From positions 1-33,479 of the forward strand of contig JADQCD010000028.1 of the NCBI GenBank assembly GCA_016278285.1: a stretch of DNA of 33,479 nucleotides, written 5' to 3'. Shown one piece after another: positions 1,592 through 33,479 of this stretch. The notes under the pieces are model-generated. The model was not told where the DNA came from. It worked only from the letters and a program-made list of their open reading frames with translations, and made no database searches. The position numbers were made by a program, and so were the translations under genes. Origin of the DNA: Actibacterium sp. GTDB lineage: Bacteria; Pseudomonadota; Alphaproteobacteria; Rhodobacterales; Rhodobacteraceae. How positions within the stretch are numbered: the first letter of the stretch is position 1; each line of letters opens with the position of its first letter.

Positions 1592-3217
1592 ATGCGCAGC
1601 GAAACGCCTGAGGGGCGGCAGGAAGCTGCCATCCCGGCGATAGAGCTTCGCGGGATTTCCAAGGCCTTCGGGCCGGTTCAGGCCAACAAGGACATCTCGA
1701 TCAAGGTGATGCCCGGCACGATCCACGGCATCGTTGGCGAGAACGGCGCCGGGAAATCCACCCTGATGAGCATTCTTTACGGCTTCTACAAGGCCGATTC
1801 GGGTGAAATCTTCGTCAACGGCCGCCAGACCGCGATCCCCGACAGCCAGGCAGCAATACGTGCCGGTATCGGAATGGTTTTCCAGCATTTCAAGCTGGTG
1901 CCGAACTTCACCGTGCTGGAAAACGTCATCCTGGGCGCCGAGGATGGTCCGCTTGTCAAGCCGTCGCTGGCCAAGGCCCGTGGCACGCTGAAACGGCTGG
2001 CCGCGGAATACGAACTGCATGTCGATCCCGATGCGCTGATCGAGGATCTCAGCGTCGGGCATCAGCAGCGTGTCGAAATCCTCAAGGCGCTTTTCCGTTC
2101 GGCCGACATCCTGATCCTGGACGAGCCGACCGGCGTTCTCACGCCGACGGAGGCGGATCACCTGTTCCGGATTCTCGAAAGCCTGCGGGCCGAGGGCAAG
2201 ACGATCATCCTGATTACGCACAAACTGCGCGAGATCATGCACATCACCGACAGTGTCAGCGTGATGCGTCGGGGCGAGATGACGAAGACGCTGAAGACCG
2301 CGACGACCGGCCCGGAAGAACTGGCCGAGCTGATGGTGGGCCGGAAGGTTCTGATGCGGGTGGACAAGGAACCGGCCGCGCCAGGCGACAACGTGCTGGA
2401 AATCGAGAATTTGCACATGACCGATGAAGACGGCGTCGCGCGCCTGAAGGGCGTGTCGCTGAATGTCCGCGCGGGCGAGATCCTGGGCATCGCCGGCGTC
2501 GCCGGCAACGGCCAGTCGCATCTGCTGGAGCTTCTGGGCGGGATCACGACCGGTACCGGCACCATACGCATCAACGGCCGGCAGATTGACCTGAGCGGCA
2601 GGCATTCCGACGCCCGGTCGCGCCGCGCCCGCGGCATCGGGCATGTCCCCGAGGACCGCCAGAGCCAGGGCCTGATCATGGATTTCACGGCCTGGGAAAA
2701 CATGATCCTGGGCTATCACGGCGACCCGGCCTATCAGAAGAATGCCCTGCTGATGGACAACCATGCGATCCGCGAGATGACGGCCGGCAAGATGGAACGC
2801 TTCGACCTGCGCCCGCCGAACCCGGACCTTCTTGCCAGAAACTTTTCCGGTGGCAACCAGCAAAAGATCGTCCTGGCGCGCGAGATCGAGCGCGGCCCCG
2901 ACCTGCTGCTGGTCGGCCAGCCGACCCGCGGCGTCGATATCGGCGCGATCGAATTCATCCACCAGAGCCTGATCGCGCTGCGCGACGCGGGCAAGGCGAT
3001 CCTGCTGGTTTCGGTCGAACTGGACGAGATCATGTCGATGTCCGACCGCATCGCCGTGATGTTCGACGGACGGATCGTCGGTGAATGCCTGCCCGGAGAG
3101 ACCGACGAGAAAGAACTGGGCCTGCTGATGGCCGGAATCGAACAGCCGTCCCGGAAAACGCCCGTGGTCGAGCCCGCATTGGACGAGGCGGCGAAGGGAA
3201 AGGGCATCCATGCCTAG
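1592..3217 (+). CDS. ABC transporter ATP-binding protein, two nucleotide-binding domains (nucleoside/sugar type)
   Basis: This 541-aa protein carries two tandem ABC ATPase domains, the arrangement of RbsA-like and BMP-linked nucleoside importers. Domain 1 has an intact Walker A (GENGAGKST, residues 49-57), an LSVGHQQR signature and Walker B LILDEPT. Domain 2 starts near residue 265 and has a degenerate Walker A (GVAGNGQS, Lys replaced by Gln), a good signature (FSGGNQQK) and a Walker B ending GQPT instead of DEPT. Only site 1 is therefore likely to be fully catalytic. The gene follows the BMP gene by 12 bp and overlaps the permease start by 8 bp, indicating one operon. Confidence 0.92.
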   Translation: MRSETPEGRQEAAIPAIELRGISKAFGPVQANKDISIKVMPGTIHGIVGENGAGKSTLMSILYGFYKADSGEIFVNGRQTAIPDSQAAIRAGIGMVFQHFKLVPNFTVLENVILGAEDGPLVKPSLAKARGTLKRLAAEYELHVDPDALIEDLSVGHQQRVEILKALFRSADILILDEPTGVLTPTEADHLFRILESLRAEGKTIILITHKLREIMHITDSVSVMRRGEMTKTLKTATTGPEELAELMVGRKVLMRVDKEPAAPGDNVLEIENLHMTDEDGVARLKGVSLNVRAGEILGIAGVAGNGQSHLLELLGGITTGTGTIRINGRQIDLSGRHSDARSRRARGIGHVPEDRQSQGLIMDFTAWENMILGYHGDPAYQKNALLMDNHAIREMTAGKMERFDLRPPNPDLLARNFSGGNQQKIVLAREIERGPDLLLVGQPTRGVDIGAIEFIHQSLIALRDAGKAILLVSVELDEIMSMSDRIAVMFDGRIVGECLPGETDEKELGLLMAGIEQPSRKTPVVEPALDEAAKGKGIHA

Positions 3218-4304
3218 GCTACCCAATTGGGCCGATGTCGTGCTGATACCCGCGCTCAGCCTGCTGATCGCCTTTGTCTTGTCCGGACTGGTGATCCTTG
3301 CCATCGGCGAGAATCCGATCGCGGCCCTCAACATGATGGTCAAGGGCGCCATGGGATCGACTTATGGCTGGGGCTACACGCTTTATTACGCCACGAATTT
3401 CATGTTCACCGGTCTCGCCTTCGCCGTGGCCTTCCACGCGCGGATGTTCAATATCGGCGCCGAGGGTCAGGCAATGATGGGCGGGCTGGGCGTGGCGCTG
3501 GTCTGTCTGGCCGTCGACTGGCCGCATTGGGCACTGGCGCTTCCCGTCGCGGTGGCCGGCGGGGTGGCCTTCGGCGCTCTTTGGGCGCTGATCCCGGCCT
3601 GGCTTCAGGCGCGGCGCGGCAGCCACATCGTGATAACCACGATCATGTTCAATTTCATCGCCGCGTCGATCCTGAACTATGTCCTTGTCAACCTGATGCG
3701 GCCCGAAGGCTCGATGGACCCGGCGACGGCGAGGTTCCCGCCGGGCACCGGCCTGCCCACGTTGCACGACATCCTTGCGGTGGCGGGCATTCCGTTTTCG
3801 CAGGAAACACCGGCCAATATAAGCTTTTTGCTTGCGGTCATCGCCTGCGTCCTGGTCTGGTTGCTGATCTGGCGCACCCGGCTGGGTTATGGCATCCGCG
3901 CCTACGGTCACTCCGAAGCGGCCGCAGTCTATGCCGGGATATCTCCGGTCAGGATCGTGGTGATCGCAATGCTGATTTCGGGCGGGCTGGCCGGGATGAT
4001 GGCGATCAACAACGTCATGGGCGAGGCCGAAAGGCTGGTGCTGAACGCGGTCGAGGGGGCCGGCTTCATCGGCATCGCGGTGGCGCTGATGGGCCGCAAC
4101 CACCCGTTCGGCATCTTCCTGGCCTCGCTCCTGTTCGGATTTCTATACCAGGGTGGCGCCGAACTTGCGTTGTGGATGAGCATTCCGCGCGAACTGATCG
4201 TGGTGATTCAGGCGCTGGTGATCCTGTTCACCGGCGCGCTGGACAACATGGTGCGGATGCCGCTGGAAAAGCTGTTCGCGGTCCTGCAAAAGGAGCGCGC
4301 GTAA
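3210..4304 (+). CDS. ABC transporter permease, BMP/nucleoside type, first subunit
   Basis: This 364-aa polytopic inner-membrane protein has many hydrophobic segments, starting at about residue 13. The family segment MFNIGAEGQAMMGGLG (about residues 80-95) is characteristic of the BPD_transp_2 permeases that pair with RbsA-like dual ATPases. Its start overlaps the ATPase gene end and its stop overlaps the next start by one base (TAATG), so the subunits are translationally coupled. It is predicted to form the channel with the second permease. Substrate is inferred from the BMP binding protein. Confidence 0.9.
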   Translation: MPRLPNWADVVLIPALSLLIAFVLSGLVILAIGENPIAALNMMVKGAMGSTYGWGYTLYYATNFMFTGLAFAVAFHARMFNIGAEGQAMMGGLGVALVCLAVDWPHWALALPVAVAGGVAFGALWALIPAWLQARRGSHIVITTIMFNFIAASILNYVLVNLMRPEGSMDPATARFPPGTGLPTLHDILAVAGIPFSQETPANISFLLAVIACVLVWLLIWRTRLGYGIRAYGHSEAAAVYAGISPVRIVVIAMLISGGLAGMMAINNVMGEAERLVLNAVEGAGFIGIAVALMGRNHPFGIFLASLLFGFLYQGGAELALWMSIPRELIVVIQALVILFTGALDNMVRMPLEKLFAVLQKERA

Positions 4305-20072: not shown

Positions 20073-22598
20073 TTATTCCGCCGGTGACGATACACGGACC
20101 TTGTTCGTGTCCCGCCACTCTGCCGCAGACCGCGTCCCGCTCTCATCCATCGCCGGCGCCACGCGGCGCAGGCGCAGCGCATTGCTGAGAACAAATACCG
20201 AGGACAGCGCCATCGCGCCGGCCGCGAGGATCGGTGACAGAAGAACGCCGAAAGCGGGATACAGAACCCCCGCCGCAACCGGGATCAGCGCGGTGTTATA
20301 GCCAAAGGCCCAGAACAGATTCTGCCGGATATTGCGCATGGTCCGCGCCGATATCTCGAAGGCATTGACCACGCCGCGCAAATCCCCCGACATCAGCACC
20401 ACATCGGCGGCTTCGATCGCCACGTCGGTGCCGGTGCCGATGGCGATGCCCACATCGGCATGGGCCAGCGCCGGGGCATCGTTGATTCCGTCGCCCACGA
20501 AGGCCAGCCGCTTGCCGCCCTTGCGCAGTTCGTCCAGCGCGGCGACCTTGCCCTCGGGCAGGACGCCGGCGATCACATGATCTATCCCGGCCTCATGCGC
20601 GATCGCCTCGGCGGTTTCGCGCTTGTCACCCGTGATCATTGCGATCTTCAGACCCTGATTGTGCAGCGCGTCAATGGCCGCACGACTGGCCGGCTTGATC
20701 GGGTCCGCGACGGCAAGCACCGTGGCCACCCGCCCGTCCACGGCGGCATAAAGCGCGGTGCGCCCGCGCTGCGCCAACCGGGTCTCATCATCGTGCAGCT
20801 TGTCGGTGGACAGCCCCTCGCGCGTCATCAGACGGTCGGCGCCCACCAGAACGTCATGCCCGCCGACGGTGGCGCGCACGCCGTAGCCGGTAATGGATTG
20901 GAACCCCGTTACCTCGGGCATCGGCGCCCTCTCGGCCCGCGCTGCGCGCAGGATGGCCTCGGCGATCGGATGCTCGGACTGCGCCTCGACCGCGGCGACG
21001 AGTCCCAGCACCTGCGCCCTGTCGAAGCCATCGGCCAGCACCAGATCGGTCAGCTCCGGGCGCCCTTCGGTCAGCGTGCCGGTCTTGTCCAGCGCGACCA
21101 CATCGACCGAGGACAGTGCCTGCAAAGCGTCGCCCTTGCGAAACAGCACGCCCATCTCGGCCGCGCGGCCGGTGCCCACCATGATCGAGGTCGGCGTGGC
21201 CAGCCCCATCGCGCAGGGGCACGCAATGATCAGCACCGATACCCCGGCGACCAGCGCAAATGTCAGCGCCGGGTCCGGGCCGAAAACCAGCCAGGCCAGA
21301 ACGGTCAGCGCCGCCGCGGCCATCACAGCGGGCACGAACCACAGCGTGATGCGGTCCACCAGCCCCTGTATGGGCAGCTTGGCACCCTGGGCCTGCTCCA
21401 CCATGCGAATGATCTGCGACAGCGTGGTATCGGCCCCCACGCGGGTGGCCCGAAACCGGAAACTGCCCGTCCCGTTCACCGTTCCGCCGGTCACTGCGTC
21501 GCCCTCGTGCTTTGCGACCGGGACCGGCTCGCCGGTAATCATGCTTTCATCGACATGGCTTTCGCCCGAGATCACCGCGCCATCGACGGCCAGACGCTCG
21601 CCCGGACGCACAATCAGGATGTCGCCGGTCGCGATCTGCTCGATGGGCAGTTCGACAGATTCACCGTCGCGTTCCACACGGGCGGTTTTCGCCTGAAGCC
21701 CCAGCAGTTTTCGGATCGCCGCACCGGTGCGGCCCTTGGCGCGGGCCTCCAGGAACCGGCCCAGAAGGATCAGAACGACGATCACCGCCGCAGCCTCGTA
21801 ATAGACCGCGCGCACCCCTTCGGGCAACAGCATGGGCGCGAAGGTTGCCACCACAGAATACAGATATGCCGCGCTGGTGCCCACCGCGACAAGGCTGTTC
21901 ATGTCGGGCGCCCCGCGCAGCAGCGCCGGAAAGCCCAGCGTATAGAACTGCCGCCCCGGTCCGACCAGCACCAGCGTCGTCAGCAGGAACTGGATCAGCC
22001 AGCTGGCCTGATGCCCGATGGTGCGGCCGATCAGGTCATGCAGTCCCGGGATCAGGTGGCCACCCATTTCAAGCAGAAAGACAGGCAGGGCCAGCGCAGC
22101 GGCAAGCGCCATACGACGTGCAAGGCGGCGTGCCTCTTGCTCTTTTCGGGCGGTGCGGTCATCACCCCCCATCGGCCCGGACAGCTGTGCCGGATTGCCG
22201 GCCGCGGATGCCGCGGCGATCAGGTCGCCCGGCCTGACGGCCCCTTCCAGGAATGTCACCGTCGCGGTTTCGGATGCAAGATTCACGTTCACGTCCAGGA
22301 CCCCAGGAACCGCCGCCAGCGCCTTGTCCACCCGCCCCACGCAACTGGCACAGGACATCGACGCGATGCTCAGCTTGACCGTCTCGCGTCGCGCGGGATA
22401 CCCCGCTTTCGCCAGTGCCTCGGCAACAATGGCCGGACCGGCCGGCGCCCGCACCGTCATCCGGGCGGACTCGCTGGCCAAGTTGACGGAAACGTCGTCC
22501 ACGCCATCCAGCGCGTTCAATGCCTTCTCGACCCGGCCGACGCAGCTTGCGCAGGACATGCCTTCGATTGAAAGGCGCATCTGGTTGGAAGCGGACAT
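20073..22598 (-). CDS. copA: Copper-exporting P1B-type ATPase CopA
   Basis: This 841-aa inner-membrane pump exports Cu(I) with ATP. It has two N-terminal heavy-metal domains (Cys16/Cys19 in MSCASC and Cys83/Cys86 in MSCASC), then membrane helices. The actuator segment is [17 protein letters not shown], the metal-site helix [10 protein letters not shown], the phosphorylation site DKTGTLTEG, the [10 protein letters not shown] motif, and the hinge [13 protein letters not shown] identifies the P1B-1 (Cu+/Ag+) subgroup. ATG 22598 has AGGAG upstream. cueR follows in the same operon, and copZ is divergent. Confidence 0.96.
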
Positions 22599-23481: not shown

Positions 23482-24588
23482 TCATGACTTGGGCAGAACC
23501 GGCGCCGAACGGTCAAGCGCCAGTTCGGAATCCGAGAACACCCAGGGACCGCGCAGGCCCGGCACCCCCTCGGGCGCGATGCGCAGGCCGCGCGCGACCA
23601 CCTGAGGATCGGCGAAAACCTGATCCAGCGTGTTGATCGGCCCGGCGGGCACCGTCGCCGCCTCCAGCGCGCGCAGCAATTCGGCCGAGGCGTGGCGGGC
23701 AATCTGCGCCGACAGCAGCGGCTCCAGCGCGTCGCGATTGGCGACTCGGTCGGCATTGGTTGCAAAGCGCGGGTCGTCGGCCAGCGCGGGCATCTCCAGC
23801 ACGTCGCAAAGCCGCCGGAACTGCCCGTCGTTTCCGACCGCGACGATCACATGCCCGTCGGCGGTGGCAAAGACCTGATAGGGCACGATGTTGGGATGCG
23901 CGTTGCCCTGTCGCACCGGAGCCTTGCCGGTAGCCAGGAAATTCATCGCCTGGTTTGCCAGCGTCGCCGTGGCGCAATCCATCAATGCCATGTCGATATG
24001 CTGGCCCTTGCCGGTACCGTGGCGCTGTTCGATCGCGGCAAGGATGCCGATTGCGCCGTAAAGACCGGTCAGGATATCGGTGACCGCCACGCCCAGCTTT
24101 TGCGGCTGGCCGTCCGGTTCGCCGGTGATCGACATCAGCCCGGACATGCCCTGGATCAGGAAATCATATCCGGCCCGGTCGGCATAGGGGCCGGTCTGCC
24201 CGAAACCGGTGATCGAGCAATAAACCAGCCGCGGGTTAAGCACCGACAGGCTGTCATAGTCGAGCCCGTATTTCGCCAGCCCACCCCGCTTGAAATTTTC
24301 GACCAGAACGTCGGCGTCCTGCACCAGTTCGCGCACCCGCGCCTGGCCCTCCGGCGTGCGGAAATCGGCCACGACCGAGGTCTTGCCCCGATTGCAGGCA
24401 TAGAAATAGGCTGCGGTTCGGTCGCCGTCCCGCTCGATGAAAGGCGGGCCCCAGCGGCGGGTGTCATCGCCTTCGGGCGCTTCGACCTTGATGACCTCGG
24501 CGCCCAGATCGGCCAGGGTCTGACCAATCCACGGCCCGGCCAGGATACGGGCCAGCTCGACGACCTTGAGCCCCTGTAACGGCGGCAT
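23482..24588 (-). CDS. Class III (CaiB/BaiF) CoA-transferase, possibly glutarate-active
   Basis: This 368-aa family III CoA-transferase moves CoA between acyl-CoA and carboxylates through an aspartyl intermediate. It begins with the typical LKVVELARILAGPWIGQTLADLG and has the EAPEGDDTRRWGPPF region. The catalytic Asp is in DMALMDCATATLANQAM. Its ATG overlaps the TGA of the gcdH-type gene by one base, so the two are made together. Succinyl-CoA:glutarate CoA-transferases are common partners of glutaryl-CoA dehydrogenase, which is the most likely role. In this operon a different dicarboxylate is also possible. Confidence 0.85.
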   Translation of the reverse strand: MPPLQGLKVVELARILAGPWIGQTLADLGAEVIKVEAPEGDDTRRWGPPFIERDGDRTAAYFYACNRGKTSVVADFRTPEGQARVRELVQDADVLVENFKRGGLAKYGLDYDSLSVLNPRLVYCSITGFGQTGPYADRAGYDFLIQGMSGLMSITGEPDGQPQKLGVAVTDILTGLYGAIGILAAIEQRHGTGKGQHIDMALMDCATATLANQAMNFLATGKAPVRQGNAHPNIVPYQVFATADGHVIVAVGNDGQFRRLCDVLEMPALADDPRFATNADRVANRDALEPLLSAQIARHASAELLRALEAATVPAGPINTLDQVFADPQVVARGLRIAPEGVPGLRGPWVFSDSELALDRSAPVLPKS

Positions 24589-25808
24589 CAGAAGAACGCT
24601 TGCAGCCCGGTCTGGGCGCGGCCCAGGATCAGGGCGTGCACGTCATGCGTGCCTTCATAGGTGTTCACGGTTTCCAAGTTTATCATGTGCCGGATCACCT
24701 GGTATTCCTCGGAAATCCCGTTGCCGCCATGCATGTCGCGCGCGGCACGCGCGATGTCCAGCGCCTTGCCGCAATTGTTGCGCTTTATCAGCGAGATCAT
24801 TTCCGGTGCCGCGCGCCCCGCATCCATCAAACGCCCCACCTGCAATGCCGCCTGAAGGCCCAGCGTGATCTCGGTCTGCATGTCTGCCAGTTTCTTCTGG
24901 AACAATTGCATCTGCGCCAACGGCTTGTTGAACTGCTTGCGGTCCAGCCCGTATTGTAGGGCCGCGCGCCAGCAGAACTCGGCGGCGCCCATCGCACCCC
25001 AGGCGATGCCAAAGCGCGCCCGGTTGAGACACCCGAACGGCCCTTTCAGCCCCTCGACACCGGGCAGCAGCGCGTCTTCGCCCACCTCGACACCGTCCAT
25101 CACGATCTCGCCCGTGGTCGAAGCGCGCAAGCTGAGCTTGCCGTCGATCTTCGGCGCCGACAGGCCCTTCATGCCCTTTTCCAATACGAAGCCCTTGATC
25201 TTGCCGTCATGCGCCTCGGACCTGGCCCAGACCACGAAGATATCGGCAAAGGGGCTGTTGGAAATCCACGTCTTGCTGCCGGTCAGGCGATAGCCCGTCC
25301 CGGTCTTTTCGGCCCGGGTCTTCATGCTTCCCGGATCGCTGCCCGCATCGGGCTCGGTCAGACCGAAACAGCCGATCAATTCGCCCGAGCACAGGCCGGG
25401 CAGGAACTTCTTTCGCTGGGCCTCGGTACCGTAGGCATGGATCGGATAGATCACCAGGCTGGATTGCACCGACATCATCGAGCGATAGCCCGAATCCACG
25501 CGCTCGATCTCGCGCGCGATCAGGCCATAGGTGACATAGGACGCGCCCAGCCCGCCATATTCCTCGGGCAGGGTTGCGCCCAGCAGCCCCGCCTCGCCCA
25601 TCTCCTTGAACAGCTCGGGCTCGGCGCGTTCCTCGCGATAGGCGGCAATGACGCGCGGGGCAAGCTTGTCGTCGGCGAAGGCACGCGCACCGTCGCGCAG
25701 CATCCGCTCTTCCTCGCTGAGCTGGTCCTCCAGCCGCAGCGCATCCTCCCAGTCGAAACGGGACAAATCGGGCGAATCCTTGGCTGATGTCACGGTGGCG
25801 TCCTTCAT
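24588..25808 (-). CDS. gcdH: Glutaryl-CoA dehydrogenase-type acyl-CoA dehydrogenase
   Basis: This 406-aa FAD enzyme oxidises and decarboxylates glutaryl-CoA to crotonyl-CoA. FAD and substrate motifs are [12 protein letters not shown] and [16 protein letters not shown]. The segment [15 protein letters not shown] and the C-terminal [20 protein letters not shown], with the catalytic Glu near residue 385, are characteristic of the GcdH branch. The product crotonyl-CoA is the substrate of Ccr, encoded elsewhere in this window. It starts 11 bp after the DUF4387 gene, so it is likely read from the sigma-54 promoter. The ribosome site is weak (GAGGG). No LysR-type gcdR is adjacent. Confidence 0.9.
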
Positions 25809-25819
25809 TCTGTTTACCC

Positions 25820-26146
25820 TCAGGCAGCGTCGTCGATCACAATATCCAGTAACGGTGCATATTGCTGCGCGCCGAAAATGTCACCATCCCCCGCACTTCC
25901 GCTGGGGCGTTTGCGCAAAATGGTGAACTTGATCGCATAGGCCGGGTCGTATTCGACGAAATCGGTGATCCGCGCGGGGTCGATCTTCAGCAGACTTGCG
26001 ACAGAATCGCGCGACAGCGCGCCAGATCGCTTGACCAGTTCATAGGCGTCCGCCGCACGGAAGATCACGTCGAAGGTGATCTTGTCGGTGCCGGCATTCT
26101 TGCTGCGGATCGTCTTGGCGAGATCGCTCAGTTTCTTGTTGGACAT
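25820..26146 (-). CDS. DUF4387 protein (AtuA partner family)
   Basis: This 108-aa protein resembles DUF4387, a small family typically encoded beside, or fused to, DUF1446/AtuA proteins. It starts [28 protein letters not shown], and the central segment [27 protein letters not shown] is the conserved core. No signal peptide or membrane segment is visible. ATG 26146 has AAGGAG upstream, 17 bp after the AtuA-like gene. The pair probably forms one enzyme with large and small subunits, but no reaction is established that I can name. Confidence 0.82.
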
Positions 26147-26163: not shown

Positions 26164-27543
26164 TCAGGCGTCTGCGAAGGTCTTTGCGCCGACGATTTCG
26201 GTTGCGGTCGGGAAAAGCTCCAGCGGCTTTTCGACGGCCATGGTGTGGTTCAGCGTCCAGCGATGGGCCGGGCTGGCTGGCAGAACCTCGTCAAAGACGA
26301 AAGAGACGCCGCCGGCAGTGCCCTTCACGTCGGGTAGTCGGGCATAGAAAAGCTGCCGGGTGCCGGTAATCGCCACTTCCTCGGCCATCTCGGGGGTCGG
26401 CGCAACGCCCTGGACGACAACCAGCACCTCGTGCCCGGGCCTGTCGCGCAGCGGTTCCATTTCACCCATGATCCCGTCGCGACCGAAGACATTGAAATGC
26501 AGCTCCCAGCCTTCGGGGCCGAACCGTTCTTCGACCTGGCGGCGCCCCCAGGCCATCACCTCGTCCACATTTGAGATGGTATAGGGGTCGCGGATGCCGG
26601 CCATGCCGACATAGCGCTCGCCGACCTTGCCCGAGCCTTCCAGCTTTACCCTCAGTTCTTCCGCGGGAACGAAGCGCATGCCGGTCACGCGGGTGGTCTT
26701 GTCCGACACCTGCTCGTAATGGCAATCGGTCATGTCCAGCATCCCGCCGGCGACAAACTCATGATAGGGGTTGGACCGTTCGTACATCGCGTGCCCTGCG
26801 ACCGAGGCGACCGTGCAGCGCTGTTCGGGGTGCATGGCCGTGACCTCGACCCATTCGTCGGTGATCTCGCCCAGCACGGTTTCCTTCGCGCCGTAAGGCT
26901 CGGCGCAGAAGGACGCGCATTCCAGCACCTTGCCCAGGTAATAGGACTGCGCCTCGGGGAAGCCGTGATAAAGCGCGGGCGCGGCGAAAACCGCGCTGTC
27001 CGAACAGCGCCCCCCGATGATGACGTCGCATTTCTCCTCCAGCAGCGAAACGAAGGGATGCACGCCGGCCATTGCCACGATCCGCGTCGTCGCGTCGAGC
27101 TCGTCCTCGGTCAGGTCGTCACGGGCATCGAGCCCCTTGACCGCCGAACCGGAGCGGATCTTGCCGCGGACCAACTCCTTGTCCAGCTCCGAATAGAACC
27201 ATCCGATGCGGAAGGCCGGCAGGTTGTGACGCCTGGCGATGTCCCGGATCATCCCGACATACATGTCCACGCGCGAATTCGATCCGGTATCACCGGCCGA
27301 TCCGATGATCATCGGCACGCCCAGTTCCCGGGCAGCCAGCAGCATCTGTTCCAGGTCGTGTTCCTGCCAGGATGCGGGGCTGGCACAGGTGTCGCTGCCC
27401 AACGGCACCGGGCCGATATCGTCGCTGCCCGAATCCGCGGCGATGTAGTCCGGCTTTTCAGCCACGCCCAGGCGGAAGCTTTCGACCTTGAGCGGGGCAA
27501 ATCCCAGGTGGCCGTTCGGGCAAATGATCTTGAGCGATTTCAT
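26164..27543 (-). CDS. AtuA/DUF1446 family protein
   Basis: This 459-aa cytoplasmic protein belongs to DUF1446, named after AtuA of acyclic terpene utilisation in Pseudomonas. Visible landmarks are CPNGHLGFAP at the N-terminus, IAADSGSDDIGPVPLGS, IGSAGDTGSNSRVDMY, DVIIGGRCSDSAVFAAPAL and AGIRDPYTISNVDEVM. The reaction is not established. The acidic, glycine-rich N-terminal motifs suggest a metal or CoA/nucleotide site, but that is inference. I trim the ORF to ATG 27543, where GGAGAA precedes and homology starts. A sigma-54 promoter lies about 35 bp upstream. It leads a four-gene unit with DUF4387, gcdH and the CoA-transferase. Confidence 0.85.
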   Translation of the reverse strand: MKSLKIICPNGHLGFAPLKVESFRLGVAEKPDYIAADSGSDDIGPVPLGSDTCASPASWQEHDLEQMLLAARELGVPMIIGSAGDTGSNSRVDMYVGMIRDIARRHNLPAFRIGWFYSELDKELVRGKIRSGSAVKGLDARDDLTEDELDATTRIVAMAGVHPFVSLLEEKCDVIIGGRCSDSAVFAAPALYHGFPEAQSYYLGKVLECASFCAEPYGAKETVLGEITDEWVEVTAMHPEQRCTVASVAGHAMYERSNPYHEFVAGGMLDMTDCHYEQVSDKTTRVTGMRFVPAEELRVKLEGSGKVGERYVGMAGIRDPYTISNVDEVMAWGRRQVEERFGPEGWELHFNVFGRDGIMGEMEPLRDRPGHEVLVVVQGVAPTPEMAEEVAITGTRQLFYARLPDVKGTAGGVSFVFDEVLPASPAHRWTLNHTMAVEKPLELFPTATEIVGAKTFADA

Positions 27544-27576
27544 GAAGTTCTCCACAATTTTTTGTCGCTTCGTAAA

Positions 27577-27593
27577 TGCAAACTGCATGCCAA
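27577..27593 (-). promoter_or_regulatory. Sigma-54 (-24/-12) promoter of the AtuA-gcdH operon
   Basis: On the minus strand the sequence reads TTGGCATGCAGTTTGCA, that is TGGCAT (27592-27587), five bases, TTGC (27581-27578). This matches the RpoN consensus TGGCAC-N5-TTGC at all but one core base, with exact spacing. The predicted start leaves a leader of about 25 nt before ATG 27543. A sigma-54 activator gene lies immediately upstream. Confidence 0.78.
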
Positions 27594-27663: not shown

Positions 27664-27684
27664 TCGCGCGCGGAACACGCGCGA
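27664..27684 (-). terminator. Possible terminator after the sigma-54 activator gene
   Basis: TCGCGCG, 7-base loop and CGCGCGA form a perfect 7-bp stem 12 bp past the activator's stop. On the minus strand it is followed after about eight bases by TTTTTT. This would separate the activator transcript from the sigma-54 promoter downstream. The T-run is further from the stem than usual. Confidence 0.4.
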
Positions 27685-27695
27685 CGGTGAAAATT

Positions 27696-28700
27696 TCACG
27701 CGCCGCGCATTTCCAGTTTTATCATCTGGTGACGCAGGGCATGACGACTGATCTTCAGCATTGCCGCCGCCTCCTGCATGTTGTGCCCCGTGGCCGACAG
27801 CGCATGCGCGATCAGCTCGCGCTGAAAGTCCGCCGTCGCCTCATGAAACCCGTGGGGATACGCCGAGCCGGCGATTGTTTCCTCCACGCTCGGGACGGTG
27901 TCGCGGCCGGCGCGGACGGTGCGCAGGATCCGGTCGGGCATATGCCGCGGTAGAACCTCATCGTCGTCTTCCAGGATAAAGATTCGCTCCAGCAGATTCT
28001 CCAGTTCGCGCACGTTTCCCGGCCAGGGGTATTTCAGGAATATCTCGCGCACTTCAGGCGACAAACCGCTGATATTGCGATCATATTGCCGGTTGAACCT
28101 GTCGATGAAATGCCGCGAGAGAACCAGAACATCTTCGCCCCGCTCGCGCAGCGGCGGAATATTGAGCGCGACGACCTGAAGCCGATAGTAAAGATCCTCT
28201 CGGAAATTCCCGGCCTTGACCTCTGACAACAGAACCTTGTTCGTCGCGGCGATGAAACGCACGTCCACCGGCGTCATGCGCACCGCACCGACTCGCCGAA
28301 ACTGATAGGTGTCCAGCAGCGACAGTAGCTTGGCCTGCAAGGTCAGCTCCAGCTCGCGGATCTCGTCAAGGAAGATCGAGCCGTGATTGGCGGCCTCGAC
28401 CAGTCCGATCTTGCGTTCGACCGCGCCGGTGAAGGCCCCCTTCTCGTGGCCGAAAAGTTCCGATTCCATCAGGTTGGCCGGGATGGCGGCACAGTTTATG
28501 TCGACGAATTCCTTGTTCGCGCGCGATGATTTGGCGTGGACGATGCGGGCGACCAGACCCTTGCCCGTGCCGGTCTCGCCATAGATCAGAACCGTCCGGG
28601 CCGGGCTTTTCGCCACCCGGTCCATCAGCCCCTGCAGGTTGCGGATGCTCTCGTGTTCGCCGATCAGCCTGTTCGAATAATCCGCCATTGCCCGTCCCAT
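27696..28700 (-). CDS. Sigma-54-dependent activator without sensor domain (PspF-like layout)
   Basis: This 334-aa bacterial enhancer-binding protein has an AAA+ domain starting within the first dozen residues. Walker A is GETGTGKG (41-48), the sigma-54 contact loop GAFTGA is at 88-93, Walker B is IFLDEIREL, and the arginine-finger region is [11 protein letters not shown]-terminal Fis-type helix-turn-helix follows ([20 protein letters not shown]). There is no receiver, GAF, PAS or V4R domain, so it is either constitutively active or controlled in trans, as PspF is by PspA. It begins 12 bp after the C45 hydrolase gene and thus belongs to the transporter operon. It is the obvious activator for the sigma-54 promoter just downstream. 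Confidence 0.9.
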
Positions 28701-28712
28701 CGGTTTCCCCCG

Positions 28713-29813
28713 TCAGGACGTCAGCGCGATACTTTGCCATTCGCCCGAACAGGGATTGTCGAGGCAAACATACATCAGGCGCGACCGACAGCAATAAACC
28801 ACACCGGACAGGGTGCGCGTGCCCGAGGCGCCACCATGCTGGCACAACGGCGCGAGGGCGGGATCATCGCCGTCGCGATGCTGCGCCATGAGCCGGGCCG
28901 CGTCCCCGACGCCCCATGCCTGCCGGGGCAGTATCCGGTCCAGAAATCCCCGCCGGTCGAGCGAACTGTCCTCGATGGAACTGCGCCGATCAACCAGCGT
29001 TTGCGGTGCCAGCGCCGTGGTCGTGAAATGGTTGGTGCGGCAGACCAGTGGCGCGGTTTCCACCGACACACCCTCTGCGCCCAGCTCAACCGCGGCCACC
29101 TCGCCGGCCGCATCGGCCAACACCAGCGTGCCACCCCCTGCATGGCGCAGGTCCCGGATCATCGACACCGCCGCACCGACGCTGGCCGTTTCGGTCAGCA
29201 GGCGGGTCATCAGGAAATAGCGCAGCCAGCCGACGGCGTGTTGCGTCACACCGACTTGCGTGTCCACCACGGCCAGGCCGGCAGCGTTCATCCCGCTGGA
29301 ATAGGCCCCCGGGCTGCCGAGACTGCCCAGACACAGCATCGGCCCGTGCTTCAGATCGGGTCCCTCATGGCGGAATACCCTTTGAATACCCGCGTGTCCG
29401 CCAGAAAAATCACGATTCTTGACGGCTAGCGGCCCGTCCGGCCCGTCCGACACGGCCCAGGCGCTGCAGCCGTCGGATGTTCCGCCCTGCGCCTGCGCCA
29501 GATCTCGCAGGGTGCCCAGATGAAGATGCTGGAAAAGCGCATCCTCCGGCAAATCGAACCCCGCGGCGATACCGGCTAGCTCGGCCATCGCGTCGGCGCA
29601 TTCGCTCCGGGCGAATGATTTTTGACGATCGAGATAGGCGCGCGCCGCATCACCCAGAAGGCCATTCTCGCGCGCCGCGGCGATCCGGTCGCGGGTGAGC
29701 TGGCGCACCTCCTGCCAGATGTTTGTCCCCGCAGTAATCTGCGCCTCTCCCCGCTCGAAGGGGGTGCCAACCAGTGGCAGAACGGCATCCTGGTCTGCGG
29801 CGCGCACCCTCAT
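28713..29813 (-). CDS. C45-type Ntn hydrolase/acyltransferase (isopenicillin N acyltransferase-like)
   Basis: This 366-aa protein resembles the C45 autoproteolytic acyltransferases/hydrolases related to acyl-CoA:6-aminopenicillanate acyltransferase. The likely self-cleavage site is Gly-Cys in GTSDGCSAWAV, making Cys116 the new N-terminal nucleophile, with VKNRDF following as usual. C-terminal landmarks are CRTNHFTT and GTRTLSGVVYC. Such enzymes cleave or form amide bonds; the substrate is unknown. No signal peptide is seen, so it acts in the cytoplasm on imported material. I trim the ORF to ATG 29813, which overlaps the ATPase stop as ATGA. The position inside an oligopeptide-type ABC operon suggests it hydrolyses the imported compound. 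Confidence 0.8.
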   Translation of the reverse strand: MRVRAADQDAVLPLVGTPFERGEAQITAGTNIWQEVRQLTRDRIAAARENGLLGDAARAYLDRQKSFARSECADAMAELAGIAAGFDLPEDALFQHLHLGTLRDLAQAQGGTSDGCSAWAVSDGPDGPLAVKNRDFSGGHAGIQRVFRHEGPDLKHGPMLCLGSLGSPGAYSSGMNAAGLAVVDTQVGVTQHAVGWLRYFLMTRLLTETASVGAAVSMIRDLRHAGGGTLVLADAAGEVAAVELGAEGVSVETAPLVCRTNHFTTTALAPQTLVDRRSSIEDSSLDRRGFLDRILPRQAWGVGDAARLMAQHRDGDDPALAPLCQHGGASGTRTLSGVVYCCRSRLMYVCLDNPCSGEWQSIALTS

Positions 29814-30838
29814 GTCCCGACCGGATCCAGAAGCGACAGATTTTCGTTCAGCCGGTGGCAGGCGGCCTGATGTCCGTTGCCGACCCGTTCCGTGACGGGC
29901 GCCTGACGCCGGCAGATGTCGATCGCCAGCGGGCACCTTGTGTGGAATTTGCAGCCCGAGGGCGGCGACAGCGGCGAGGGCAGATCGCCGGTCAGGCGGA
30001 CGCGCGCCTTGCGGACCCCGGCGTCCACCTCTGGCACCGCCGACATCAGGCTTTGCGTATAAGGGTGGCGCGGTCCCGTCAGAATCGACTCGACGGGCCC
30101 CATTTCAACGATCTCGCCCAGATACATCACGGCAACCCGGTCGCTGAGATATCCGATCACCGAAATATCGTGCGAGATGAAGAGATAGGTCAGGCCCATT
30201 TCCTGCTTCAGATCGGTCAGCAGTTCGATGATCTGCGCCTGGATCGACACGTCAAGCGCCGAGACAGGTTCATCGCAGACGATGAATTCCGGGTTGCTGA
30301 CCAGCGCGCGGGCAATGCCGATACGCTGGCGCTGTCCGCCCGAGAACTGATGCGGGTAGCGGTCCAGATGCGCCGATTTCAGGCCCACTTTCTCGACCAT
30401 CGCGACGACCTTGTCTCGCGCCTCGGTGGGGGTCTTCGTCAGCCCGTGCAGTTTCAGCGGCAGACCCACGATCTCGGCCACGGTGCGACGCGGATTGAGC
30501 GAGGCATAGGGATCCTGAAAGATGATCTGCATCCGCCGGCGCATCGCCTTCATGGCCGCGTCGTCCAGCCCGGTCACGTCCACCCCGTCGAAAACGACCT
30601 TGCCCGCCGAAGGCTCGTGCAACCGCAGTATAGACCGGCCCAGCGTGGACTTGCCGCAGCCGCTTTCGCCGATCAGGCCCAGGATCTCGCCCGGCCTGAC
30701 GCCGAAACTGACATCGCTGACGGCCTGGACGCGCGTCTGCTTGCGACCCGAAAGACGGTCGGCCAGATTGTGCCGCCCCAGATAAGTCTTGGACAGTCGC
30801 TGAACGTCCAGCAAAGCTGTATCGGCTTGCGCGATCAT
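29810..30838 (-). CDS. Oligopeptide/dipeptide ABC transporter ATPase, OppF/DppF type
   Basis: This 342-aa ATPase has Walker A GESGCGKST, signature FSGGQRQRIGIARAL and Walker B FIVCDEPVSALD. The C-terminal oligopeptide extension ends in the cysteine cluster CKFHTRCPLAIDIC. The ORF runs to 31162, but the upstream part is the other ATPase in another frame; ATG 30838 overlaps the preceding stop as ATGA. The N-terminal segment with a longer insertion before Walker A (GRHNLADRLSGRKQT) is typical of the F-type subunit. It energises import with its D-type partner. Confidence 0.92.
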   Translation of the reverse strand: MIAQADTALLDVQRLSKTYLGRHNLADRLSGRKQTRVQAVSDVSFGVRPGEILGLIGESGCGKSTLGRSILRLHEPSAGKVVFDGVDVTGLDDAAMKAMRRRMQIIFQDPYASLNPRRTVAEIVGLPLKLHGLTKTPTEARDKVVAMVEKVGLKSAHLDRYPHQFSGGQRQRIGIARALVSNPEFIVCDEPVSALDVSIQAQIIELLTDLKQEMGLTYLFISHDISVIGYLSDRVAVMYLGEIVEMGPVESILTGPRHPYTQSLMSAVPEVDAGVRKARVRLTGDLPSPLSPPSGCKFHTRCPLAIDICRRQAPVTERVGNGHQAACHRLNENLSLLDPVGT

Positions 30839-31860
30839 ACCTCGGCCTCCTGTCTGGTCGCGGCGTTCTCGACCCGGATGCAGCGCGCCATACGCCGCGG
30901 GCCGGCCGGTTGCATCGCGATGTTCTTCAGACAGTCCGGCCCCGCCAGCGGGCAGCGCGAATAGAACCGGCATTGCGGCGGCAGGTCGATGAGGTCGGGC
31001 ACCTGCCCCTGGATCGGATGTATCCGTTCGCCCCGCAGCGCCGGGCGCGGAATCGAGGCCAGAAGCCCCTTTGTATAGGGGTGCTGCGGTGCCGAGATCA
31101 CATCGCGTGTCGGCCCCTGCTCGACCACCTGGCCGGCATACATCACCATCACCCTCTCGCAATGCTCGGCCACGACGCCCAGATCGTGGGTGATCAGAAC
31201 GACGCTCATGCCCAGCCGGGCGCGAATGTCGCTGATCAGTTCCAGCACCTGCGCCTGGATCGTCACGTCCAGCGCGGTCGTCGGCTCGTCCGCGATCAGC
31301 AACTTGGGACGCGAGGCCAGCGCGATGGCGATCATGATGCGCTGGCGCATCCCGCCCGAGAATTCATGCGGATACTGGCGCAGACGTTCCCCTGGCGAGG
31401 GAATGCCGACAAGGCCCAGCATCTCGACCGCCCGCTCACGGATCGCGCGGCGGCGCGCGGCGCCGCGCGCGGGAAGCTCCTCGTCATGGGCCTCCAGCAC
31501 CTCGCGGATCTGCTCGCCCACGGTCAGCGCGGGGTTGAGCGCGGTCAGGGCGTCCTGCATGGTCATGGCGATGTCGCGGCCACGGATCGCGCGCATCTGG
31601 CCCGGGCCGAGCGCGCGCAGGTCCTGCCCCTCGAAAATGATCGATCCGGCGTCGATCCGTCCCGGCGCGCGCACCAGCCCCATCACCGACCCGAATGTGA
31701 CGCTCTTGCCCGATCCGGATTCGCCCACGACGCCCAGGCACTCGCCCCGGCGCACGGTCACATCCACCCCGTCCACCGCGCAGACGACGCCCGCGCGCGT
31801 ATCGAAGACCGTCCTCAGGCCGGACACTTCCAGCAGGGTGTTCTCGTCGTTCTGCATCAT
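30835..31860 (-). CDS. Oligopeptide/dipeptide ABC transporter ATPase, OppD/DppD type
   Basis: This 341-aa ATPase has Walker A GESGSGKSVTF, signature FSGGMRQRIMIAIAL and Walker B LLIADEPTTALD. The OppD-type C-terminal region has CRFYSRCPLAGPDC. The start is ATG 31860 (MMQNDENTLL), overlapping the permease stop; the ORF extension to 32244 is permease sequence in another frame. All junctions in this operon are ATGA overlaps, which implies coupled translation and balanced subunits. Confidence 0.92.
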   Translation of the reverse strand: MMQNDENTLLEVSGLRTVFDTRAGVVCAVDGVDVTVRRGECLGVVGESGSGKSVTFGSVMGLVRAPGRIDAGSIIFEGQDLRALGPGQMRAIRGRDIAMTMQDALTALNPALTVGEQIREVLEAHDEELPARGAARRRAIRERAVEMLGLVGIPSPGERLRQYPHEFSGGMRQRIMIAIALASRPKLLIADEPTTALDVTIQAQVLELISDIRARLGMSVVLITHDLGVVAEHCERVMVMYAGQVVEQGPTRDVISAPQHPYTKGLLASIPRPALRGERIHPIQGQVPDLIDLPPQCRFYSRCPLAGPDCLKNIAMQPAGPRRMARCIRVENAATRQEAEV

Positions 31861-32762
31861 TCGTGGAACCTCGGATCGAAGGCATCGCGCAGGCCCTGAC
31901 TTGCAACATTGATCCCCAGCACCAGCAAGAGGATCGCGATGCCGGGAAAGGTGCTGACCCACCAGGATTGCATGATGAAGGCGCGGCCATCGGCGACCAT
32001 CGCACCCCAGGACGCGGTCGGCGGCTGCACGCCCAGCCCCAGAAAGCTCAGGCTCGCCTCCAGAATGATCACATGGGCCATGCGGATGGTCGACACGACG
32101 ATAACCGGCGACAGGATGTTGGGAAGGATCTCGCGCATCATGATGTGCCGGCTGGATGCCCCGAGTGCGCGGGCGGCTTCGACATATTCCAGTTCGCGCG
32201 TGGCCAGCGTCTCGCCCCGCACGACGCGGCAGGGGATCACCCATTCCTTGTAGACCAGCGCCAGGATGATGTTGATCAGTCCCGGCCCCATCATCGCCAT
32301 CAGGCCGATCGCGAAGATCAGATAGGGAAAGCCCAGAAGGATATCGACAACGCGCGAGATGACGGTGTCCACCCAGCCGCGCAGGAATCCCGCCGCCAGC
32401 CCGGCGACGATGCCGATCGTCGTGGCGACCAGGACGACCGCGGCACCGACGAATATCGAGATGCGCGCGCCATAGATGATGCGCGAAAGGATATCGCGGC
32501 CCAGTGCGTCGCAGCCCAGAAGATAGGCCCAGTCGCCGCCTTCCTGCCAGGCCGGCGGCTGCAGGCGCCGGAACAGGTCGGTGACGTTGGGATCATGCGG
32601 CGCGATGAAAGGCGCGAAGACGGCCATCAGGACGAACAGCAGCACGACCACGGCGCTGCCAAGCGCAAGCCGGTTCTCGGCAAAGGTCGCCATGTTCCGG
32701 CGGAAGATCGAATTCACCACCGGATCCGCCGATGCGGCCGGGCCGTTGTCGATGGCTGTCAT
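31857..32762 (-). CDS. Oligopeptide/dipeptide ABC transporter permease, DppC type
   Basis: This 301-aa inner-membrane permease has an N-terminal cytoplasmic stretch, a first helix (ALGSAVVVLLFVLMAVFAPF), the family segment GCDALGRDILSRIIYGARIS, and the cytoplasmic EAA loop EYVEAARALGASSRHIM followed by LPNILSPVIV. These are all typical of DppC/OppC. Its ATG overlaps the stop of the DppB-type gene. It forms the pore with the next protein. Substrate cannot be told from the permease. Confidence 0.92.
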   Translation of the reverse strand: MTAIDNGPAASADPVVNSIFRRNMATFAENRLALGSAVVVLLFVLMAVFAPFIAPHDPNVTDLFRRLQPPAWQEGGDWAYLLGCDALGRDILSRIIYGARISIFVGAAVVLVATTIGIVAGLAAGFLRGWVDTVISRVVDILLGFPYLIFAIGLMAMMGPGLINIILALVYKEWVIPCRVVRGETLATRELEYVEAARALGASSRHIMMREILPNILSPVIVVSTIRMAHVIILEASLSFLGLGVQPPTASWGAMVADGRAFIMQSWWVSTFPGIAILLLVLGINVASQGLRDAFDPRFHE

Positions 32763-33479
32763 AGCTTCACCCTCGGGTTAAGGACGGTGTAAAGAATGTC
32801 GGCCACGAAATTCAGCAGCACATAGGTCAGCGCGTAGAACAGCACGGCGGCCTGCACCAACGGGTAATTCCGCACGAAGATGCTTTCGACGACCAGCCGA
32901 CCCAGACCCGGCCAGCCGAAGACCGTTTCGACGATCATGTTGCCGCCCAGCAGTGAACCCGTTTCGATCGCCGCCACCGACACGGTCGGGATCAGCGCGT
33001 TCTTGAGGGCATGACGAAACAGGATGCGATTGCGCCGCAGGCCCTTTGCCTCGGCGAAGGTGACATAATCCTGGCGCATCACTTCCAGCATGGATGTCCG
33101 CGTGACCCGCATCAGGATCGCGGTCATGGGCAGACCCAGCGTGATCGCCGGCAGAATGATGTGCGACAAGGCATCGAGGAACGCATCGGGACGGCCGCGC
33201 AACAACGTGTCGATCAACAGGAAATGGGTGATCGGCTCGATCTCGCTGGAAAACCCGATCCGCCCGGATACCGGCAGAAGCTGAAGCTGCACCGCGAACA
33301 GCATAAGCAGCAGGATACCGAACCAGAACCCCGGCAACGAGACCCCCAGCAGGGAGCCGACTGTCGCCAGGCGGTCGGTTATGGAATTCTTCTTGATCGC
33401 GGCCACGACCCCCAGCGGGATCGCTGTGACCAGCGCGATGATAAGCGCCACGAGGCTGAGCTCGATGGTCGCGGGCAAC
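32759..33479 (-). CDS. Oligopeptide/dipeptide ABC transporter permease, DppB type (5' part outside the window)
   Basis: The visible 240 codons (including the stop) are the C-terminal part of a DppB/OppB permease that continues past the window edge. The ORF's TTG start at 33478 is just where the window begins. The EAA loop DYVTFAEAKGLRRNRILFRHALKNALIP and the final FVADILYTVLNPRVKL are diagnostic. The substrate-binding protein, which would reveal the ligand class, is expected upstream and is not visible. Confidence 0.92.
   Translation of the reverse strand, partial: LPATIELSLVALIIALVTAIPLGVVAAIKKNSITDRLATVGSLLGVSLPGFWFGILLLMLFAVQLQLLPVSGRIGFSSEIEPITHFLLIDTLLRGRPDAFLDALSHIILPAITLGLPMTAILMRVTRTSMLEVMRQDYVTFAEAKGLRRNRILFRHALKNALIPTVSVAAIETGSLLGGNMIVETVFGWPGLGRLVVESIFVRNYPLVQAAVLFYALTYVLLNFVADILYTVLNPRVKL

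Follow-up and report, generated by a model that had tools for sequence, protein, structure and literature searches.

Most sigma-54 activators (bEBPs) carry a sensor domain, which is not a requirement and is absent in the PspF type, an activator without a regulatory domain. In Cereibacter sphaeroides, one sigma-54 copy and one activator are assigned to each gene set, as in RpoN1-NifA (nif) and RpoN2-FleQ (fla1) (PMC11999139). The RpoN3-AprX-xrpA system of C. sphaeroides and relatives (PMC11999139) likewise joins a particular RpoN copy and a cognate activator to a conserved -24/-12 element, with the presence of the activator co-occurring with that of the promoter; AprX has a REC domain, and its target is an XRE repressor of ctrA. 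The locus described here was found in a window of 33,479 nucleotides (the whole stretch of DNA analysed, contig JADQCD010000028.1 of Actibacterium sp.) and has in common with RpoN3-AprX-xrpA the pairing of an RpoN copy and an activator, the conserved -24/-12 element, the co-occurrence of activator and promoter, and the bacterial group, but its activator is sensorless, its predicted targets encode an importer and a lyase, and the cluster includes rpoN. It follows the one-copy, one-activator pattern of RpoN1-NifA and RpoN2-FleQ, whereas its targets are catabolic and nif and fla genes are absent from the cluster. The activator resembles the PspF type in its AAA+ domain with GAFTGA, its HTH and its missing sensor domain, but psp genes are not linked to it and it is encoded at the end of an operon preceded by a -24/-12 site. 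An RpoN copy with a cognate activator and targets is thus known already, and what is new is one more such set. The features of the window are as follows.

23482..24588, minus strand: family III CoA-transferase; best match, below cut-off, succinate--glutarate CoA-transferase
24588..25808, minus strand: acyl-CoA dehydrogenase, best read as glutaryl-CoA dehydrogenase (gcdH); NCBIfam matches below cut-off; 11 bp after DUF4387
25820..26146, minus strand: DUF4387 protein, related to citramalate lyase subunit B (CmlB)
26164..27543, minus strand: AtuA (DUF1446), related to citramalate lyase subunit A (CmlA)
27577..27593, minus strand: putative -24/-12 sigma-54 promoter TTGGCATGCAGTTTGCA; predicted start near 27566; kept in 20/20 activator-linked relatives
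27666..27680, minus strand: candidate enhancer dyad GCGTGTTCCGCGCGC, 88 bp upstream of the -24 element; the composite of dyad and promoter was found genome-wide
27687..27701, minus strand: second dyad GCGTGAAATTTTCAC, degenerate; it is spaced 21 bp from the first and overlaps the stop codon of the activator gene; weak in the window
27696..28700, minus strand: sigma-54 activator of 334 aa; AAA+ with GAFTGA, Fis-type HTH, no N-terminal sensor domain
28713..29936, minus strand: C45 (AAT-type) autoproteolytic acyltransferase/hydrolase; start of the reading frame probably over-extended
29810..30850, minus strand: OppF/DppF-type ATPase; start approximate
30835..31860, minus strand: OppD-type ATPase; start approximate
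31857..32762, minus strand: OppC-type permease
32759..33478, minus strand: OppB-type permease, truncated at the contig end; contig C253 carries the oppA start, its -24/-12 site and rpoN

The site at 27577-27593 is very probably a genuine sigma-54 promoter that drives AtuA-DUF4387 and is fired by the adjacent activator, a reading of the whole module to which we give a probability of roughly 90% from comparative sequence analysis. The order Opp-C45-activator-AtuA-DUF4387 is widely kept in relatives. Subunit A of citramalate lyase is matched by AtuA and subunit B by DUF4387 (PDB 9erq chains A and B, 3e-135 and 3.8e-34; also 9evf), although the AtuA of the window is only distantly related despite the strong profile match. 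A literature search found no literature on DUF4387 and incidental mentions only of DUF1446. In the activator, the AAA+ domain (PF00158, 4e-64) begins at residue 12 and contains the GAFTGA loop, the C-terminal Fis-type HTH corresponds to PF02954, and the NCBIfam pspF match is below cut-off; no N-terminal sensor domain is present. Elsewhere in the window, an ABC ATPase with a duplicated domain and the permease after it (1592-4304, plus strand) resemble a sugar/nucleoside importer, and 20073-22598 (minus strand) encodes a P-type ATPase of the copper type whose N-terminus has two metal-binding repeats.

At the promoter site the minus strand reads gtTGGCATGCAGTTTGCAttt, with GG at -24 and GC at -12 in canonical sigma-54 spacing. 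The first-pass annotation had described TGGCAT-N5-TTGC with exact spacing on this strand, 35 bp before ATG 27543 and within about 120 bp of the activator stop; the motif is present there, and the distances were measured as 34 nt to the ATG (the C of the -12 GC being 27578) and 103 bp to the activator stop codon (27698-27696), within an activator-AtuA gap of 152 bp. The one weak terminator-like hairpin in the gap (27618-27605) is within shuffle expectation.

Taken alone, the motif occurs in this genome no more often than expected by chance. TGGCAY-N5-TTGC has one exact match in the window, the AtuA site, and with one mismatch allowed 5 window matches were obtained against 5.6 expected; genome-wide, TGGCAYN5TTGCW gave 4 matches compared to 6 for reversed-pattern controls. 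Motif counts inside this genome were set aside as uninformative, the matches being no commoner than controls. A functionless chance match, with AtuA expressed by read-through from opp or from a sigma-70 promoter, would fit this frequency in the genome and in the window, as well as the collinear genes and their 152-bp gap. The motif is nevertheless significant because it is conserved in relatives. Phylogenetic footprinting of the gap, proposed in the first-pass annotation as a check, recovered the -24/-12 element as the main conserved island besides the ribosome site. Among relatives taken from family and from species genomes, it precedes AtuA in 20/20 with a linked activator (among them L059, whose activator is an unrelated REC-type protein, and L057, whose activator is cut at the contig end so that the loop is unreadable) and in 0/10 without the activator or with GAFTGA lost; the loci are mutually related, so these counts are not phylogenetically independent and the Fisher value overstates significance. 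The strict, medium and relaxed forms occurred in 6, 17 and 20 of the 20 orthologous upstream regions, with shuffle means of 0.003, 0.05 and 0.38, respectively, and the orthologous sites of L069, L070 and L071 are off consensus. Conservation at the same place spans alpha-, beta- and gammaproteobacteria, with an intact linked activator throughout except in Haematobacter (L053). Furthermore, the enhancer dyad is conserved, and a promoter scan found no sigma-70-like site in the gap, so that a chance match is hardly credible. In L059, a Thermoanaerobacterales MAG, the -24/-12-like site before AtuA (7926) lies downstream of the REC-type activator and has no dyad, and rpoN was not found in the 1.7 Mb assembly.

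In an unguided search of 33 promoter-upstream regions, the top dyads were GCGCG-N5-CGCGC and GCGTG-N5-CACGC, in 7 and 6 regions; the best dyad in 200 shuffles reached 4 regions. The merged form GCGYG-N5-CRCGC was exact in 24/35 promoter regions (shuffle mean 1.06, max 4) and present with at most one mismatch in 33/35 (shuffle mean 8.0, max 15), although this form was picked after the dyads had been seen and a genome search with the composite is the better test. Across 298 family genomes, the composite of dyad and -24/-12 site had 26 matches, 15 of them at the two promoters of the cluster (9 genomes); the other 11 are at background level, the reversed control giving 10. Copies of the dyad are often paired in relatives, 20-22 bp apart. 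This enrichment provides the sigma-54 promoter with a putative enhancer. The promoter might instead be fired by a different activator, for example the REC-type GAFTGA protein encoded on contig C314, with the adjacent one serving other targets. That protein is the other GAFTGA activator of the genome, with a REC-like N-terminus, and in Haematobacter the -24/-12 site before AtuA is kept (L053, 7950) while an orthologous activator was not found in the genome. At both promoters, however, the dyad is found together with the orthologous activator, and this holds also in betaproteobacteria, where the activator lies downstream on the opposite strand. Away from the cluster, composite sites are no more frequent than background. 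The protein on C314 is consistent with AprX and may be AprX, which has a known target, xrpA (PMC11999139). We therefore consider control by another activator very unlikely and retain the adjacent one as the regulator.

The module extends beyond the AtuA promoter. Most relatives have a -24/-12-like site before oppA, accompanied by the GCGYG-N5-CRCGC dyad. In this genome the oppA start is at the end of C253, with the -24/-12 site at C253:729-744, and rpoN lies immediately upstream on the same strand, thus adjoining the oppA operon that the site precedes. This is the only rpoN of the genome, and it encodes activator-interacting, core-binding and DNA-binding domains. The same linkage, with oppA directly downstream of rpoN, was seen in 12 Rhodobacteraceae genomes (this genome, nine family genomes in which a single contig holds the cluster, G130 on contig C22, and G300, the genome of L047), the oppA upstream stretches of L048 (Maritimibacter fusiformis HY14, a cultured relative that carries the cluster) and L052 being outside this reading. 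An exception is G040 (L076), whose more distant cluster has the promoter and activator with the sole rpoN on another contig. Although rpoN scored above cut-off in 93/298 family genomes, it was present in all 11 sampled genomes with a close-type cluster and its -24/-12 site. In the rpoN tree, linked copies form a near-single group (2 changes compared to 10.9 for shuffled labels) within a branch to which the four copies of one multi-copy genome all belong. The rpoN of Stappia and Bordetella relatives falls in the other main branch, so the linkage is a Rhodobacteraceae feature and the pairing of activator and promoter is wider. Very probably, then, the module conserved together comprises rpoN, a -24/-12 site with oppABCDF, the C45 hydrolase and the activator, and a -24/-12 site with AtuA-DUF4387.

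A third -24/-12-like site of this genome (C82:6310; L002, 1501-1516) lies before an XRE-family gene whose neighbours are a divergent quinone-oxidoreductase-like gene and an inositol-monophosphatase-like gene, which is the published gene context of xrpA (PMC11999139). A fourth strict match lies at 1501-1516 of L003 (G000, C114). These findings bear on an extension of the preferred reading, namely that the cluster-borne RpoN is dedicated solely to the module. The adjacency of rpoN and oppA in the 12 genomes is consistent with dedication, as are three of these, G200, G206 and G255, which carry another full-length rpoN elsewhere, but here rpoN is the sole copy and both an xrpA-like gene with its -24/-12 site in the published context and a likely AprX are present. 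The single RpoN therefore probably serves at least two activators, and exclusive dedication is rather unlikely.

A later sample, comprising a class-wide draw and wider regions, added 13 loci from other families. L182 has an intact GAFTGA, the -24/-12 site and two exact dyads 21 bp apart; a -24/-12-like site near its oppA (15443) was rejected since it is inside coding sequence. The -24/-12 site was absent before 12 AtuA genes (11 loci) without a linked activator, where L180 is apparently the same contig as L063 and the upstream stretches of L189 and L181 are short. L178 (G491) encodes an intact GAFTGA activator, but its gap measures about 47 bp and its AtuA lacks a preceding -24/-12 site, and its oppA is preceded by a -24/-12-like site with a longer-spaced palindrome; this pattern fits a single fused operon, a reading made after the fact. 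In L056 and L075 the activator is kept with the loops GTLAGA and GSFAGA, and the promoter site is absent; the L056 genome has one rpoN and the L075 genome none. Based on their common gene order these two loci are probably one lineage, so the loss counts as perhaps one event. They represent a naturally occurring series of joint losses, which affect the promoter, the GAFTGA loop and in some cases rpoN.

In the predicted mechanism, RpoN-RNA polymerase would occupy the -24/-12 element as a closed complex, and the sensorless activator, encoded just upstream, would bind GCGYG-N5-CRCGC about 65-130 bp upstream of -24; the DNA would then loop and the GAFTGA loop of the activator would open the complex. 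The same activator and RpoN would fire the second promoter, before oppABCDF-C45-activator, and since that operon includes the activator gene, the activator would thereby amplify its own synthesis. Judged from the encoded proteins, the cluster may serve uptake and cleavage of an amide-linked hydroxy-acid: Opp would import the compound, the C45 enzyme would cleave an amide-type bond, and the CmlAB-like lyase would cleave the hydroxy-acid.

The first-pass annotation had proposed a single RpoN-dependent operon of AtuA, DUF4387, gcdH and the CoA-transferase. The AtuA-DUF4387 part is strongly supported by the footprint, the dyad, the pattern of GAFTGA loss and the rpoN linkage. The remainder did not generalize: of about 20 loci, just 3, namely the window, L047 and L068, have gcdH and the CoA-transferase after DUF4387, which makes the glutarate angle secondary. 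RpoN control of gcdH would thus be no conserved property, and in this genome the 11-bp gap suggests that the two genes would be transcribed by read-through. It may matter in this organism because this gcdH is the only close copy in the genome, the next being 35% identical. The earlier statement that glutarate genes are usually under LysR- or FadR-type control agrees with the GntR/LysR control described for Pseudomonas putida (PMC6667623), and a literature search found no RpoN control of glutarate genes.

With a second promoter, enhancer sites and rpoN, the module is larger than the single promoter first annotated. For the AtuA-DUF4387 (CmlAB-like) enzymes, which have been little studied, it provides enhancer and promoter sequences that can be put to the test. 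A sigma-54 copy and an activator thereby gain a predicted regulon in the Rhodobacteraceae, where most sampled species are without rpoN and about a third retain it. Tentatively, the module may be a self-contained sigma-54 unit, with its own sigma factor, a sensorless activator, both target operons and positive feedback, in which the whole route of import and cleavage would stay off until the activator reached a threshold, and which may be what keeps rpoN in some Rhodobacteraceae.
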